Positions 3,036 through 64,000 of a DNA stretch of 64,000 bases are shown piece after piece (the first letter of the stretch is position 1; each line of letters opens with the position of its first letter). The position numbers were made by a program, and so were the translations under genes. Under the pieces are notes generated by a model. That model did not search any database. It was not told where the DNA came from and saw only the letters and a list, made by a program, of their open reading frames with translations. Source of the stretch: Erysipelatoclostridium sp. AM42-17 (GTDB taxonomy: Bacteria; Bacillota_I; Bacilli_A; Erysipelotrichales; Coprobacillaceae); assembly GCF_003480255.1 (NCBI RefSeq), contig NZ_QUIN01000001.1:124001-188000 (forward strand), read 5' to 3'.

Positions 3036-4910
3036 GTGGATGTAAAAAATATTAAAGATCCATTGTTTTTAAAGGACCTCAACAATGAACAATTAAATGA
3101 TTTGGCTAATGATATACGTCAATTTATTATTCAATCTGTTTCCCGTACAGGAGGACATCTATCAAGTAATTTAGGTATTGTAGAATTAACTATTGCTTTA
3201 CATTATGTTTTTAACTCTCCTACAGATAAAATTTTCTTTGATGTAGGGCATCAAGCATATGTACACAAAATATTAACGGGGCGTGCTAATGAATTTGACA
3301 CGCTTAGAAAATACCATGGTTTGTCAGGCTTTCAAAAAAGGTGTGAAAGTCCACATGATGTTTGGGAAGCAGGGCATTCATCAACTGCATTATCAGCAGC
3401 AGTTGCGATGGCAGTTGCTCGAGATTTAAATCATGACAGTTATCATGTTGTTCCTGTTATTGGCGATGGAGCAATGGTTGGTGGTGAATCTTTAGAAGCA
3501 CTTAATCATTTAGGGTCTATTGAAAATAAAGTAATCATAATTCTTAATGATAACCAAATGGCTATTACTAAAAGTATTGGTGGGTTTAATAATTTTTTAT
3601 CAACAATTAGGTTAAGTGATACTTATCATCATTTTAAGGATGATTACAAAAATGCACTTAGTAAAGGAAAAATAGGAACATTTATTTATCAAATTTCTAA
3701 ATCTATAAAAGATTTTATTAAACACGGTTTAATTGATGATACGATTTTTGAAGATTTTGGAATTGATTATTTGGGTCCGGTTGATGGACATAATATAAGT
3801 GAACTCATTCGAGTGTTTAATATTGCAAAAATCTCTGATAAAAGTGTAGTTGTTCATGTTATTACTAAAAAAGGGAAAGGATATTTACCAGCAGAAAATG
3901 ATAAAGCAGGCAAATGGCATGGAACTGAACCGTTTAATATTAGTGATGGATCAAGTAAAACATCGCCTAGTTCCAAGATAAGTTGGTCTCAAGTTCTAGC
4001 AGATCATGTAGAAAAATGGATGGAAAAAGATAAAGATATTGTTGCAATCACACCAGCAATGATTAATGGTTCTGCTTTACAATCAATTTTTCAACATTAT
4101 CCACAAAGAAGCTTTGATGTAGGTATTGCTGAAGAACATGCACTAACTTTTACTGCCGGTTTATCAATCAGTAGAAAAAAGCCATTTATATCTGTCTATT
4201 CATCATTTATTCAACGTGCATATGATCAAATAAATCATGATATAACAAGAATGAATTTACCTTGTTTAATTGCTGTTGATCGTGCAGGAATTGTAGGCAG
4301 TGATGGTCCTACACACCATGGTGTTTTCGATTTATCTATTTTAACGCCATTACCTCATATAGTTATTTTTGCTCCTAAAGATGCTAAAGAAGCAAAATTA
4401 TACATAAATACAGTATTTATGAATTTTTATCATCCATATGTTGTTCGTATTCCAAGAGGTAAAGTTGAAAATTGCATACTAAATTTAAATGACACTATTC
4501 AAATAGGCTCATGGACTATTGAAGGTGTAAAAGAAAACTATGATATAACTATAATTTGTTATGGGGATAATGTTGATCGCATTTTAACTTTACAACAACA
4601 AAGTTTTAAAATAAGAGTTGTTAATGCACGTTTTATTAAACCGTTAGACCAAAATATTCTTAAATCAGTAATGAATGATGATAAACCTGTCATTGTATAT
4701 GAAACTGATTTAAAATTAGGATCTTTAGGAGAACATATAGCATCTTTTTGTAATGATTATGGTATTTCTAAAAAATTCAAACATATTGCAATCGATGATC
4801 ATTATTCTCCTCAAGGCTCTCTTGATGATATATATCGAGAAGAAAAAATAGACTTAGATAGTGTTTTACAATGTTGTAAGGAGGTTCTTCATGAAGAAAG
4901 AAAGAATTGA
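3036..4910 (+). CDS. dxs: 1-deoxy-D-xylulose-5-phosphate synthase
   Basis: TPP-dependent enzyme of 624 residues, the first committed step of the MEP isoprenoid pathway (pyruvate plus glyceraldehyde-3-phosphate). Visible motifs: GGHLSSNLG, FDVGHQAYVHK, the TPP/Mg motif GDGAMVGGE followed by LNDNQMAI, GPVDGHN, the catalytic AEEHALTFTAGL and DRAGIVGSDGPTHHG. The start is GTG 3036, 3 bases after the ispA stop, so coupling is likely. tlyA begins inside its last 20 bases. Confidence 0.95.
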   Translation: MDVKNIKDPLFLKDLNNEQLNDLANDIRQFIIQSVSRTGGHLSSNLGIVELTIALHYVFNSPTDKIFFDVGHQAYVHKILTGRANEFDTLRKYHGLSGFQKRCESPHDVWEAGHSSTALSAAVAMAVARDLNHDSYHVVPVIGDGAMVGGESLEALNHLGSIENKVIIILNDNQMAITKSIGGFNNFLSTIRLSDTYHHFKDDYKNALSKGKIGTFIYQISKSIKDFIKHGLIDDTIFEDFGIDYLGPVDGHNISELIRVFNIAKISDKSVVVHVITKKGKGYLPAENDKAGKWHGTEPFNISDGSSKTSPSSKISWSQVLADHVEKWMEKDKDIVAITPAMINGSALQSIFQHYPQRSFDVGIAEEHALTFTAGLSISRKKPFISVYSSFIQRAYDQINHDITRMNLPCLIAVDRAGIVGSDGPTHHGVFDLSILTPLPHIVIFAPKDAKEAKLYINTVFMNFYHPYVVRIPRGKVENCILNLNDTIQIGSWTIEGVKENYDITIICYGDNVDRILTLQQQSFKIRVVNARFIKPLDQNILKSVMNDDKPVIVYETDLKLGSLGEHIASFCNDYGISKKFKHIAIDDHYSPQGSLDDIYREEKIDLDSVLQCCKEVLHEERKN

Positions 4911-5694
4911 TGTATTATTAGTCGAACAAGGTTTTTTTGACTCGCGAGAAAAGGCAAAAAGAGCAATCATGGCAGGTATTGTCCACGATGACTATGACAT
5001 TATTGATAAACCTGGAACGAAAATACCTGTAGATTCTAATTTACATGTAAAGGGAGACATTTTACCTTATGTTTCACGAGGCGGTTTAAAACTAGAAAAA
5101 GCAATTAAAGAATTCAACATTAATTTGAACGATTGTATTATGGTAGATATCGGTTCATCAACTGGTGGTTTTACAGATTGTGCTTTGCAAAACGGAGCTA
5201 AATTAGTTTATGCAGTTGATGTTGGAACAAATCAATTAGTATGGAAATTACGAAACGATCCTCGTGTTATTGTAAAAGAACAAACTAATTTTAGATATGC
5301 TACAAAAGATCTTTTTAAATCAGGAATTCCATCAATTGCTACTATTGATGTTTCATTCATTTCTTTAAAACATATATTTAACGCTTTAAAAGATATATTA
5401 TCCTCAGGTGATCATGTCATTGCATTAATTAAACCTCAATTTGAAGCAGGAAGAGACGATGTTGGAAAAAATGGAATTATTAAAGATAAAAATGTACATA
5501 CTAGAGTTATTGAAAATGTTTTATCTTATGCAAATGCTGATCATTTATTTTTACAAGACCTTTCTTTTTCACCTATTACTGGGGGACATGGTAATATTGA
5601 ATTTCTAGCCCATTTTGTTTTTGATGGAGAAAATAATAATAGTATTGATATTCAGACAATTGTTGATGAAGCACATTTATGCTTTAAAGGATAG
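4891..5694 (+). CDS. tlyA: TlyA-family rRNA 2'-O-methyltransferase
   Basis: 267 residues. An N-terminal S4 RNA-binding domain (RIDVLLVEQGFFDSREKAKR) is joined to an FtsJ-like Rossmann methyltransferase with SAM motif VDIGSSTGGFTDCALQNGA. Homologs methylate 16S or 23S rRNA ribose; in Bacillus the gene is yqxC. The ATG at 4891 follows AAGGAGG (4878-4884); an upstream in-frame GTG at 4861 lies before that site and is rejected. It overlaps dxs and is followed directly by recN. argR/ahrC, usual between these two in Bacillus, is missing. Confidence 0.92.
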   Translation: MKKERIDVLLVEQGFFDSREKAKRAIMAGIVHDDYDIIDKPGTKIPVDSNLHVKGDILPYVSRGGLKLEKAIKEFNINLNDCIMVDIGSSTGGFTDCALQNGAKLVYAVDVGTNQLVWKLRNDPRVIVKEQTNFRYATKDLFKSGIPSIATIDVSFISLKHIFNALKDILSSGDHVIALIKPQFEAGRDDVGKNGIIKDKNVHTRVIENVLSYANADHLFLQDLSFSPITGGHGNIEFLAHFVFDGENNNSIDIQTIVDEAHLCFKG

Positions 5695-5702
5695 GTGAGA
5701 AT

Positions 5703-7361
5703 ATGCTTAATAGTTTATATATTGAAAATTTTGCAATTATCGATCGTTTAACAATAGATTTTTCTGAAAGTATGACTGTATTGACAGGAGAAACTGGTGC
5801 TGGAAAATCTATCATTATTGATGCCATTGGACAATTACTTGGTGAACGCAGTCAAACAAGCCTTGTAAAAAAAGGATCTAAAAAAGCATTTATTGAAGGT
5901 GTTTTTTCTCTAAATCATCCTACTTTAGAACTTACTAAAGAATTTGAAATTTACGATTTGCAATTAGATGAAGAAATTGTGGTTTCTAAAACAATAAAAG
6001 ATGATGGGAAGGCATCTATGAAACTCAATTATCGCACTGTTTCCCAAAGTGTAATTAAAAAGTTGATTCCTTATATTATAGATATTCATAATCAATTTGA
6101 TACCCATCAATTATTTAACCCTCAAACTCATTTGGCTATTTTAGATCAATTTATTGGTAAGAAAATAAATGAAATATATAATCAATATATTAATCATTAT
6201 CATCAGCTAGTATCTTTAAAAAAGAAAAAAAATACTTTAGAAAATGAAGTTCTCAGTGACGAACAACTTGATTTTTATCGAACACAAATTAATGAAATTA
6301 ATGAAATTGATTTAGAAAACATTGATGAAGAATATTTATTAAAAGAAAAGCAAAGAATACAAAATTATGAGAAAACAAAACAAAGAATGGATCAATATAA
6401 TGAATACGTTGATGGATATCAGGGTGCAATAAGTCAATTAAAGAACGCTTTAGACCAATTGCAATACTTAACAGATGATTCTCATTTTGAAAACTTCTAT
6501 AGCAAAATATATGATTTATACTACAATTTGATAGATGCAAATGATAATTTAAATAACTACTACCAAGAATTTAATTTTGATGAAAACTATATTAATGAAA
6601 TCCAAGAAACATTATTTACTTTAAATAAACTTAAAAGAAAATATGGACAAGATATTGAATCTATTAAAAAAAGCAAAAATGAAATTCAAGAAAAAATTGA
6701 TCATTTTCATGATAGAGATCAAATTCTTATTAATTTAAATAATGAAATTACAGAACTTACTAAACAAAGTCAAAAAGAAGCTCAACAAATGTCAGATATA
6801 AGAAAAAAATATGCTCATCAATTTGTCGATTTAGTAAGTAGCATCCTAAAAAAATTATATCTTGAAAATGTACGTTTTGACTTTCAATTTGACCAAGTAG
6901 AACTCTCTCAAAACGGTATAGACAATGTCACAATGATGATTTCTACTAATCCAGGGCAAGATTTACAACCATTACACAAAATAGCTTCAGGTGGTGAATT
7001 ATCACGGATCATGCTTGCTATTAAAACTGTATGTAATCAGTTTACTTCTATTGAAACGATGATTTTTGATGAAGCTGATACCGGTGTAAGTGGCAAAGTA
7101 GCTGAAAGTATCGGTAAGATTATGCATGAAATTTCAAAAAAACAACAAGTTATATGTATTACTCATTTAGCGCAAGTTGCTGCTTTTGCAGATCATCATT
7201 TGTCAATTGAAAAAAATGCTAATAAAGATCAAACAACTGTAACGATCCATGAACTATCACAAGAAAAAAGTATTCATGAAATTGCAAAAATGATTTCTGG
7301 TAAAGATGTTACAGAAGAATCATTAAATCATGCTCGTAAATTAAAACAAAATAGCGTATAA
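5703..7361 (+). CDS. recN: DNA repair protein RecN
   Basis: SMC-like ATPase of 552 residues. Walker A GETGAGKS is at residues 29-36, a long coiled-coil fills the middle, and the C-terminus carries the signature ASGGELSRIMLAI and Walker B TMIFDEADTGVSGK. RecN acts early in double-strand break repair. The start ATG at 5703 lies 8 bases after the tlyA stop with GGTGAG just before it. It is the last gene of the nusB-to-recN run. Confidence 0.95.
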   Translation: MLNSLYIENFAIIDRLTIDFSESMTVLTGETGAGKSIIIDAIGQLLGERSQTSLVKKGSKKAFIEGVFSLNHPTLELTKEFEIYDLQLDEEIVVSKTIKDDGKASMKLNYRTVSQSVIKKLIPYIIDIHNQFDTHQLFNPQTHLAILDQFIGKKINEIYNQYINHYHQLVSLKKKKNTLENEVLSDEQLDFYRTQINEINEIDLENIDEEYLLKEKQRIQNYEKTKQRMDQYNEYVDGYQGAISQLKNALDQLQYLTDDSHFENFYSKIYDLYYNLIDANDNLNNYYQEFNFDENYINEIQETLFTLNKLKRKYGQDIESIKKSKNEIQEKIDHFHDRDQILINLNNEITELTKQSQKEAQQMSDIRKKYAHQFVDLVSSILKKLYLENVRFDFQFDQVELSQNGIDNVTMMISTNPGQDLQPLHKIASGGELSRIMLAIKTVCNQFTSIETMIFDEADTGVSGKVAESIGKIMHEISKKQQVICITHLAQVAAFADHHLSIEKNANKDQTTVTIHELSQEKSIHEIAKMISGKDVTEESLNHARKLKQNSV

Positions 7362-36805: not shown

Positions 36806-36825
36806 AGTTATAATCTCCTTTTAAT

Positions 36826-36978
36826 AAAAAACTAGAGAGTTTGTTAGATTATCCCTGGTATGTGCAGGTGGGCACCTTTAAATAATTTTAGGATTCCTAT
36901 TCTTGACAGGCTTTCAACACCATTATTTAGATCAGGTTCCCTTATCTAATTTGTAGGAAATTTATTATACTCTCTAGC
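36826..36978 (-). ncRNA. Structured RNA of about 153 nt upstream of ynzC, 6S-like rod (identity open)
   Basis: A TATAAT on the minus strand (36985-36990) predicts a start at G 36978. The transcript begins with CTAGAGAGT (36969-36977), which pairs exactly with ACTCTCTAG (36832-36840), followed by TTTTTT. Inside, TTAGAT pairs with either of two ATCTAA copies, TAAATAAT pairs with ATTATTTA, and the 3' side carries the hairpin AGGTGCCCACCT. End-to-end pairing, an open middle with a 3'-side hairpin and a terminator in the closing stem resemble 6S RNA. A regulatory leader of ynzC-tkt is the alternative. No known riboswitch matches fully. Confidence 0.6.
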
Positions 36979-37022
36979 ATTGGTATTATACCATAGAAAA
37001 TATTTTAATAAACATCTTTCAT

Positions 37023-62794: not shown

Positions 62795-62817
62795 AGGAGA
62801 CTACTTGTCTCCTTTAA
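62791..62817. terminator. Bidirectional terminator between the deacetylase and TetM-NYN genes
   Basis: TTAAAGGAGAC (62791-62801) and GTCTCCTTTAA (62807-62817), loop TACTT. Both stop codons lie within the structure. Confidence 0.85.
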
Positions 62818-64000
62818 AATCATCTAATAAATAGTTCTTCATAACCTTATTTTTACGTTTAAATTCATCGTAATTCTCTTTATGTGTATGACTTACAATC
62901 ATCTCAAATTCTCGAGAAGACATTCTCGTTGCACCTCTACCACTGACAATGAGTTGTTCTAAAGCATCTGATGTCACAACGACAACTCTAAAATTTTTAG
63001 CTAAATCATGAGTTACCCTTTCAATATACATATCTGCCGTTTGAGCTTCTTTTGTATAAACCAGAAAAATATTATCGTATTTTTCAATAAGTCCATCATT
63101 CTTTTTTACTTTATAAGCATCAAAAACAAGTATTAAAACATTATTTTTGTATCCTTGGTAATTACACATCATATCAATAAGTTTCATTCTTGCAGCATCT
63201 AAATTATCTTTAGCTAAATCTTTCAACTCATCCCATGAAAATATAACATTATAACCATCAACTAATAAACACTCTGGCAAAATTGTTACTTTTTCATTAT
63301 TTATTATTTCGATTTTTCTATTCATATCTTTAGATAGGCGATGTTTAATTGGACCATAAGTACGAATAAATATCTCTTCCAATTCTTTTTCATCTATAAC
63401 TTGTTGACGGTGATTATTTTTTGGGGGCTGATATGTTTTTTTTAAAGGTAAATGCATATATTGTTCTACTTGATTCCATGGTACATAAAACCCACTACCA
63501 TTCTTACAAAAAATAGAACCTGTAGGATAATATGGATCCTCTTCACTATTGTAATGTATTTGATTTATGACTTCTTCTTGATTATTGACTTCATAATATC
63601 CATCAAGCTGATATGATAAATGACCACTTCCTTTGGTAGAATCTTTAAATCTTAAAGGATAATCAAGCATTTTAGAAACAGGACCTGTTCCTTTGATTAC
63701 AATCATTTCATCTTGTGTAATTTCAAATTTACAGTCCATTAATTCCAAATCAAATATAACTTTACTCATATATTCTTGATTTAAAGTCATTTTAAAAGCA
63801 TAATATGGCTCTAAAATAATTGATTTTGCCTTCTTAAGACCTTGCCTTAGCGCCCGTAATGTTGCTTCTTTAAAGTCACCACCTTCGGTGTGCTTTTGAT
63901 GTGCCTTTCCATTAATGACTGTAATCTTCATATCAGTAACAGCTCCACCGATTAAAACTCCTTTTAAATATGACTCTTTTAAATAATGAAGACAAGCATT
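62801..64000 (-). CDS. TetM/EF-G-like translation factor fused to a Rae1-like NYN nuclease (5' partial)
   Basis: The frame is open to the right edge; 399 residues are visible. The first ATG (63931) is internal: the 23 codons before it continue EF-G domain IV (LKGVLIGGAVTDMKITV). Then follow ATLRALRQGLKKAKSIILEP and domain V (FKMTLNQEYMSKVIFDLELM). From LLVDGYNVIFSWDELKDLA the protein is a NYN/PIN nuclease close to Bacillus Rae1 (YacP), with acidic residues in LVDGYN, LVFDAYKV, TADMYIE and VTSDALEQ. Rae1 cuts mRNA in the ribosomal A site. The GTPase domain should lie beyond the window. Confidence 0.85.
   Translation of the reverse strand, partial: NACLHYLKESYLKGVLIGGAVTDMKITVINGKAHQKHTEGGDFKEATLRALRQGLKKAKSIILEPYYAFKMTLNQEYMSKVIFDLELMDCKFEITQDEMIVIKGTGPVSKMLDYPLRFKDSTKGSGHLSYQLDGYYEVNNQEEVINQIHYNSEEDPYYPTGSIFCKNGSGFYVPWNQVEQYMHLPLKKTYQPPKNNHRQQVIDEKELEEIFIRTYGPIKHRLSKDMNRKIEIINNEKVTILPECLLVDGYNVIFSWDELKDLAKDNLDAARMKLIDMMCNYQGYKNNVLILVFDAYKVKKNDGLIEKYDNIFLVYTKEAQTADMYIERVTHDLAKNFRVVVVTSDALEQLIVSGRGATRMSSREFEMIVSHTHKENYDEFKRKNKVMKNYLLDDFKGDK

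Follow-up and report, generated by a model that had tools for sequence, protein, structure and literature searches.

At the edge of the window (by which we mean the whole stretch of DNA that was analysed, 64,000 nucleotides from Erysipelatoclostridium sp. AM42-17) lies a gene whose visible end joins the closing domains of a translation factor to a ribonuclease domain like that of Rae1. We give about an even chance to the proposal that this fusion is the organism's Rae1, tethered by a flexible linker to a GTPase of the EF-G/Tet superfamily, and that the GTPase may act first, clearing or checking the A site, with the cut to follow.

Sections of several papers (PMC12320835, PMC10100781, PMC6613710) describe Rae1 as an A-site mRNA nuclease, and passages of another (Atkinson 2015, PMC4342817) report that Tet proteins from ten Clostridiales species acquired a YacP-like NYN domain, whose RNase activity may serve resistance. 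The architecture itself, then, is not new; it has been in print since 2015, without a tested function. The sequence-only reading of this DNA had known of no described function for the arrangement, a statement that was half right: the arrangement is printed in those passages of Atkinson 2015, but no tested function was found, and in the open-licence literature, searched by titles and abstracts, no experimental study of the fusion was recognised. Domains IV-V and the NYN domain of the published architecture are present in the window, its GTPase half is present in three full-length relatives, and the window protein is in all likelihood, to judge by this shared architecture, a member of the same group. 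What is new here is the result on the Tet cut-off and the tip motif, the single clade, the exclusivity of fused and free genes, the vacated slot between rlmB and sigH, and the unfused orthologues.

The gene at the window's edge

How much of the protein is in view? The frame of the fusion ends in a stop codon at 62801-62803, and at its other end it is still open at the window edge (64000); the unseen 5' part, beyond base 64000, is expected from comparison with the full-length relative L001 to hold about 500 codons. The features of the visible part are as follows.

62801..64000, minus strand: C-terminal part of the GTPase-NYN fusion gene, 399 codons and stop (open frame; alignment to full-length L001-L003)
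63821..64000, minus strand: EF-G/Tet-type domain IV, C-terminal part, residues 1-60 (Pfam EFG_IV)
63872..63910, minus strand: domain-IV tip GKAHQKHTEGGDF, residues 31-43, the GTPase subfamily signature (columns of the 64-row alignment)
63524..63820, minus strand: EF-G domain V, residues 61-159 (Pfam EFG_C; confident in the model)
63449..63523, minus strand: conserved tail with the C-terminal helix, at the place of the TetM helix; residues 160-184, roughly SIFCKNGSGFYVPWNQVEQYMHL (alignment; TetM 3j9y against the L001 model)
63275..63448, minus strand: linker with one short helix, residues 185-242, partly disordered (AlphaFold2 pLDDT)
62804..63274, minus strand: Rae1/YacP-type NYN ribonuclease domain, residues 243-399 (Pfam NYN_YacP; Rae1 the top fold match)
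63257..63259, minus strand: D248, which aligns with Rae1 D7 as counted in the printed alignment (64 of 64 rows)
63119..63121, minus strand: D294, conserved NYN acidic residue (64 of 64 rows)
63032..63034, minus strand: D323 of the TAD motif (64 of 64 rows)
62966..62968, minus strand: D345 of the TSD motif (64 of 64 rows)

That factor-like domains IV-V are joined to a Rae1-like NYN domain had been claimed from the sequence alone, and Pfam, PDB sequence matches and a fold search agree on it. By Pfam, the window frame matches NYN_YacP over residues 245-394 (E 1.3e-47, 162 bits against a cut-off of 24.6) and, also above cut-off, EFG_C over residues 62-141 (E 3.7e-14) and the last 53 positions of the EFG_IV model over residues 7-59 (E 3.9e-9). 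Against PDB sequences, the first half finds EF-G (E 2.7e-11) as well as TetO and TetM, and the second half finds Rae1/YacP of B. subtilis (E 1.7e-21). The AlphaFold2 model of the window residues (mean pLDDT 82.7, pTM 0.46) is confident in domain V and in the NYN domain, with pLDDT below 50 at residues 195-202 and 219-237 of the linker, and Foldseek with this model ranks Rae1 (5mq9) first (E 3.4e-10) and EF-G structures next; the fold of the NYN domain rests on this search because the VIA comparison of the full-length model barely covered that part.

Loss of the NYN acidic residues in relatives had been named in the sequence-only reading as grounds for refuting it; this was looked for and not found. 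All 64 aligned rows agree at D248, D294, D323 and D345, and the same four aspartates, which align with Rae1, are among the invariant columns of a 109-row alignment (the rows of both alignments, made for folding, were chosen from those at hand). With these acidic active-site residues kept, the nuclease domain of the window protein looks intact.

The GTPase plus NYN architecture was sought in other genomes as well, and full-length fusions were found there, such as L001 (937 codons), L002 (928) and L003 (840). The window piece aligns to them at 49%, 45% and 44% identity, respectively, and since the alignment runs through the domain junction, the joining of the two halves is neither chance nor an assembly join. 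In all three, GTP_EFTU, domains IV and V, and NYN are above the Pfam cut-off, and the domain II-III matches are weak or partly below it; a G domain in the window's own gene is what these relatives would lead one to expect, and they make it unlikely that a stop codon follows just past the edge, the other refuting condition of the sequence-only reading. Sequence searches listed 240 fusion proteins, 239 of them with at least 780 residues (a length limit used in those protein lists favoured full-length proteins), and simple patterns for the GTPase motifs find G1 in 235 of these 239, RGIT in 238, DTPGH in all 239 and NK[MIL]D in 198. Compared by eye, L001-L003 have no neighbour gene in common; the closely related L043-L045 have one or two. 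A search with a two-row alignment for near relatives of the window protein listed proteins near L001 instead, from Lachnospiraceae where named, and the genomes sampled included none close to that of the window.

Kinship of the GTPase half

To which family does the first half belong? One answer is in print, proposed in Atkinson 2015 for the proteins of Clostridiales: the fusion would protect the ribosome and so confer tetracycline resistance, as Tet proteins do, and would have gained an RNase. According to passages of the same paper (PMC4342817), it is through loops at the tip of domain IV that Tet proteins drive tetracycline off the ribosome. Several findings speak for this answer. The best NCBIfam model of L001-L003 is tet_protect (NF012153), at 402-431 bits; the top PDB sequence matches of the L003 protein are TetO and TetM; a C-terminal helix aligns with TetM; several members are named TetM, TetW, TetO or TetS in databases; and two members are on plasmid records. 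Yet the cut-off of that model, 775 bits, is missed by all three fusions (L003 431 bits, L001 402, L002 407) and by two members that lack the NYN domain (425 and 374). The control, a Tet-type protein of genome G217 (L124, tip SPASTPADF), scores 892 bits, so far above the fusions and their NYN-less relatives that tet_protect separates them from it. (The window fragment scores 60 bits and is too short to be judged by score.) The EF-G model (TIGR00484, cut-off 659.4 bits) is missed too, at 297 bits for L003, 261 for L001 and 295 for L002. On these scores the kinship of the fusions with Tet proteins is fair, and the family cut-off places them outside Tet.

The tip of domain IV also sets the fusions apart. 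AHxKHTxGGDF is found there in 236 of 239 fusions and GGDF in all 239, and a TPADF-type loop in none of the 239; the window has GKAHQKHTEGGDF at this place, and H34, K36, H37, T38, G40, G41, D42 and F43 are identical in all 64 rows, the window included. The EF-G tip, readable in 4 of 7 EF-G loci, is SYHEVDSSE or SYHDVDSSE. What of the helix after domain V? The VIA comparison carries the alignment of TetM 3j9y with the L001 model as far as residue 678, whereas most EF-G rows end at about 645-652 and those of archaeal EF-2 near 662. Some spliceosomal relatives, however, extend to 672-679 too, and this helix, whose place in the window gene is 63449..63523 on the minus strand, is therefore not a mark of Tet proteins only. 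The earlier description of the factor as TetM-like thus survives for the fold and the C-terminal helix, but not for the tip, which is not that of Tet, nor for the family score of the full-length relatives.

Two possible identities lost ground in the same comparisons. An ordinary EF-G paralogue became less likely, since the EF-G cut-off is missed, the tip is another one and an NYN domain is present; a tetracycline cassette became less likely, since the Tet cut-off is missed and the tip motif differs. Separate EF-G-sized frames, besides the fusion, are found in all eight of the eight fusion genomes examined. A further translational GTPase, of 661 codons, was met in genome G518 (L046 / L125); its tip, GEDHVMHTHPQDF, is not of the EF-G, the Tet or the KHTEGGDF type.

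The surroundings bear on the same question. Genes in the window include parC, parE and recN, a member of the RNase J family, and those for transketolase and citrate synthase, neighbours that mark the window gene as chromosomal. (The window's ParE is 84% identical to Thomasclavelia and Erysipelatoclostridium proteins, with one further protein at 89%; a 6S RNA lies at 36825-36983 on the minus strand, scoring 55.3 bits against an Rfam gathering score of 46.4.) It had been said from the sequence alone that this is no mobile cassette, and the topoisomerase IV, RecN and transketolase neighbours fit, yet in two relatives the gene is on a large plasmid record; both records are typed non-mobilizable, and this typing speaks against the resistance reading as well. 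These are the two, among 72,556 plasmid records, with a match over at least 80% of the L003 protein: L180 (NZ_CP143948.1), a fused gene on a 252 kb plasmid of Agathobacter rectalis, and L181 (NZ_OY725736.1), a fused gene on a 518 kb plasmid of Monoglobus pectinilyticus. The fused gene of L180 adjoins a toxin-antitoxin pair whose toxin is of the BrnT type.

Unfused relatives, at 46-47% identity, are on large plasmids of Ligilactobacillus salivarius. One of them, on the megaplasmid pMP118 of L. salivarius UCC118 (L179, positions 3995-5929; typed mobilizable), is an unfused GTPase of the subfamily annotated as tetracycline resistance, and it adjoins rpsN, for ribosomal protein S14. Two records named 'Bacteriophage sp.' carry the fusion, L178 (MT835514.1) and L177 (MT835563.1), at 52% and 47% identity to the L003 protein. 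A phage gene was considered and lowered, since MT835514 also encodes AddB- and AddA-like proteins, FeoB, RsmH and GltX and looks like a bacterial chromosome; three frames tried from MT835563 gave no NCBIfam model match at 1e-60, but long frames overlap on both strands of that record, and the three may not be its real genes. The family is not strictly chromosomal, and it bears no mark of a resistance cassette. With cut-off, tip and plasmid typing taken together, we consider it very unlikely that the fusion is a tetracycline-protection protein to which an RNase was added.

Fused, free and unfused genes across genomes

Does the fusion stand beside the ordinary nuclease gene or in its stead? In the class of L003 (the 'Clostridia' of our counts), PF05991 matched 192 of 293 genomes, 191 of them over the cut-off, with one match in 188 genomes and two in 4; in three of those 4 the second match is below the cut-off, so that G287 is the one genome in which the fused and the free form occur together. 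The other 101 of the 293 have no match, through real absence or incomplete assemblies. Frames were classed by length as the sole criterion (fused at 600 codons or more, free at 220 or fewer, with 43 of the 192 matching genomes outside), and among the matches listed (150 in 149 genomes) 86 genomes have a fused frame, 59 a free one and 5 an intermediate one, G287 being in the first two groups. If the two kinds were independent, 17.3 genomes would be expected to have both, against the one observed, a rough yardstick that ignores kinship.

The usual place of the free gene can be checked directly. Compared by eye with L042 as the pattern, rae1 lies between rlmB and sigH in 7 of 12 free-form loci; L021, L022 and L026 have it next to sigH but with a different gene on its other side, the sequence covered for L011 stops short of that side, and in L024 it is away from sigH. 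Among 18 fusion genomes, 11 have rlmB beside sigH, the two frames being less than 290 bases apart, with rae1 missing. The exception is G287, which keeps rlmB-rae1-sigH; five more have no rlmB in the stretch around sigH (in three of them the sigH match is at 38-46% identity and may be another sigma factor), and the last has no sigH match. The pattern suggests that the fusion took the place of the usual free-standing nuclease gene, and a fusion that replaced the free gene would do Rae1's work, with the tie to a GTPase being of some use. (In genome G649, rae1 was matched as two adjoining pieces, L144 and L145, each in a 174-codon frame.)

How often did the two halves meet? In a tree of 72 chosen NYN sequences (41 fused, 31 free), the 41 fused domains and one free one, L024 of genome G212, form a single clade (support 100/99), and the data do not reject a grouping of the 41 that leaves L024 out (p-AU 0.39). 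In a GTPase tree of 63 chosen sequences, built by a quick method, 24 fused GTPases form one clade and 30 unfused another. In a rerun with 62 sequences (two 'other' rows out, L150 in), L150, the unfused GTPase of G212, joins the fused sequences as a long-branched neighbour of their clade, not as a member. In G212, then, the two halves are two genes, on different contigs, either as the state before fusion or as a later split. From these trees the nuclease probably joined this GTPase once.

Unfused orthologues of the GTPase occur elsewhere. A sample of 249 genomes of the phylum gave fused matches in 16 and unfused ones in two, G485 and G509, by our own count of strong rows. In the order of G485 the unfused GTPase is found in 10 of 159 genomes and a PF05991 match in all 159, with no fusion among the matches; the idea that G485 is in the window's own order is apparently wrong for that reason. 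Across its class (at a guess, Bacilli), matches at E 1e-37 or better place the GTPase in 35 of 299 genomes, always unfused. Those 35 carry a single PF05991 match apiece, in short frames (170-255 codons), but since every one of the 159 genomes in the order of G485 has free rae1, finding it in all 35 is weak evidence of partnership. In the class of L003, 19 genomes with free rae1 were checked: 13 are without the GTPase orthologue, and six have it unfused (G131, G166, G293, G109, G217 and G212, the one in G217 being classed without its tip). G109 has two unfused copies (L121 and L139). All 42 unfused and all 19 fused genes of the loci, each distinct gene being counted once (the 19 are 23 frames minus 4 cut copies), have the tip HTxGGDF or YTxGGDF; they had been selected by how well they score with a model that was itself made from fusions. 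Directly ahead of GGDF, 16 of the 19 fused genes have E, and 37 of the 42 unfused ones have S or H. Databases name this subfamily only 'translation factor GTPase family' or Tet.

It is tempting to extend the proposal to the whole subfamily: when a ribosome is blocked, GTPases with the HTxGGDF tip might make its A site ready for Rae1, as one protein in Clostridia and the window organism and in trans elsewhere. We offer this tentatively and think it somewhat more likely to be wrong than right. The main counter-evidence to any cut assisted by a GTPase is in the counts just given, with 13 of the 19 checked Clostridia having a free Rae1 and no GTPase; the unfused orthologue is also patchy (10 of 159 genomes in one order, 35 of 299 in the class), and the linker, disordered as modelled, would fix no geometry that places the NYN domain in the A site.

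Might the two halves then be joined for convenience? The NYN domain would do ordinary Rae1 work and the GTPase a job of its own (such as helping ribosomes under stress), with the link giving dosage and nearness to the ribosome and GTP hydrolysis not steering the cleavage. Rae1 without the GTPase in many genomes, those 13 of 19 among them, is what one would expect of such a pair, as are a linker that is long as well as partly disordered and the separate halves kept by G212. Set against this, fused frames are kept in 86 of the 149 genomes with listed matches, and 11 of 18 fusion genomes have no free gene where it usually lies, two findings which suggest that the link itself is useful. We regard a fusion of this sort as unlikely.

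Proposed mechanism and known systems

How, then, might a tethered nuclease and a factor-like GTPase share one ribosome? The sequences show which domains are joined, that the nuclease residues are conserved, that the fusions form one clade, that the free gene is absent and that unfused orthologues stand beside free rae1; binding to the ribosome, GTP-driven clearing of the A site, the order of events and the substrates we infer. Domain IV and the NYN domain both seem to need the A site and are therefore proposed to act in turn; Tet domain IV, for its part, dislodges tetracycline in the decoding site. In the scheme that we favour, the GTPase would bind a slow or stalled ribosome, its domain-IV tip would enter the decoding site and clear or check it, and GTP hydrolysis would release the factor from the ribosome; the tethered NYN domain could then take the vacated A site and cut the mRNA, after which tmRNA or another rescue route would recycle the ribosome.

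The cut might instead serve regulation rather than rescue, with chosen short reading frames being cut in normal translation, in the manner of B. subtilis Rae1, and the GTPase tuning which paused ribosomes are addressed. Known targets of Rae1 include short or cryptic reading frames, and the window gene has ordinary chromosomal neighbours; but blocked ribosomes are where the nearest relatives of the GTPase module do their work, and we hold regulated decay to be distinctly improbable. Rarer still, in our estimation, is the chance that the fusion is a factor for ribosome assembly or for the maturation of rRNA or tRNA, its GTPase module docking on ribosomal particles. A maturation role was proposed early for NYN domains, an idea quoted in passages of PMC4342817, but Rae1 has since been described, in the sections cited at the outset, as an A-site mRNA nuclease, and the domain-IV tip is strongly conserved, as would be expected for work at the decoding site.

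If the clearing and cutting proposed here were borne out, Rae1 would gain a GTPase partner, as release factors and tRNA have theirs. The fusion, its unfused halves and G212 together make it testable how an A-site nuclease gains entry to an occupied or blocked decoding site. There is a practical side as well, in that genes of this subfamily named 'TetM/TetW/TetO/TetS tetracycline resistance' could inflate counts of resistance genes.

How does the fusion compare with what is known? TetM and TetO (PDB 3j9y, 4v6v) are without an NYN domain, have 639 residues and carry the tip SPVSTPADF (YYSPVSTPADF when written longer), whereas the fusions carry AHxKHTEGGDF and miss the Tet family cut-off. EF-G has its own tip, SYHEVDSSE, which is replaced in the fusions. 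The Tet-NYN proteins of Atkinson 2015 were filed, in the passages cited, under Tet, with a role in resistance suggested; the full-length members studied here differ from that filing in missing the Tet cut-off, in their tip, in having subfamily kin that lack the NYN domain and in mostly replacing free rae1. Rae1/YacP of Bacillus subtilis (5mq8, 5mq9) is like the NYN domain of the window in its family (PF05991), its fold and its four aspartates, with 124 residues aligned at E 3e-22; it is a free protein of about 170-180 residues, whereas in the window the same domain is the tail of a factor.
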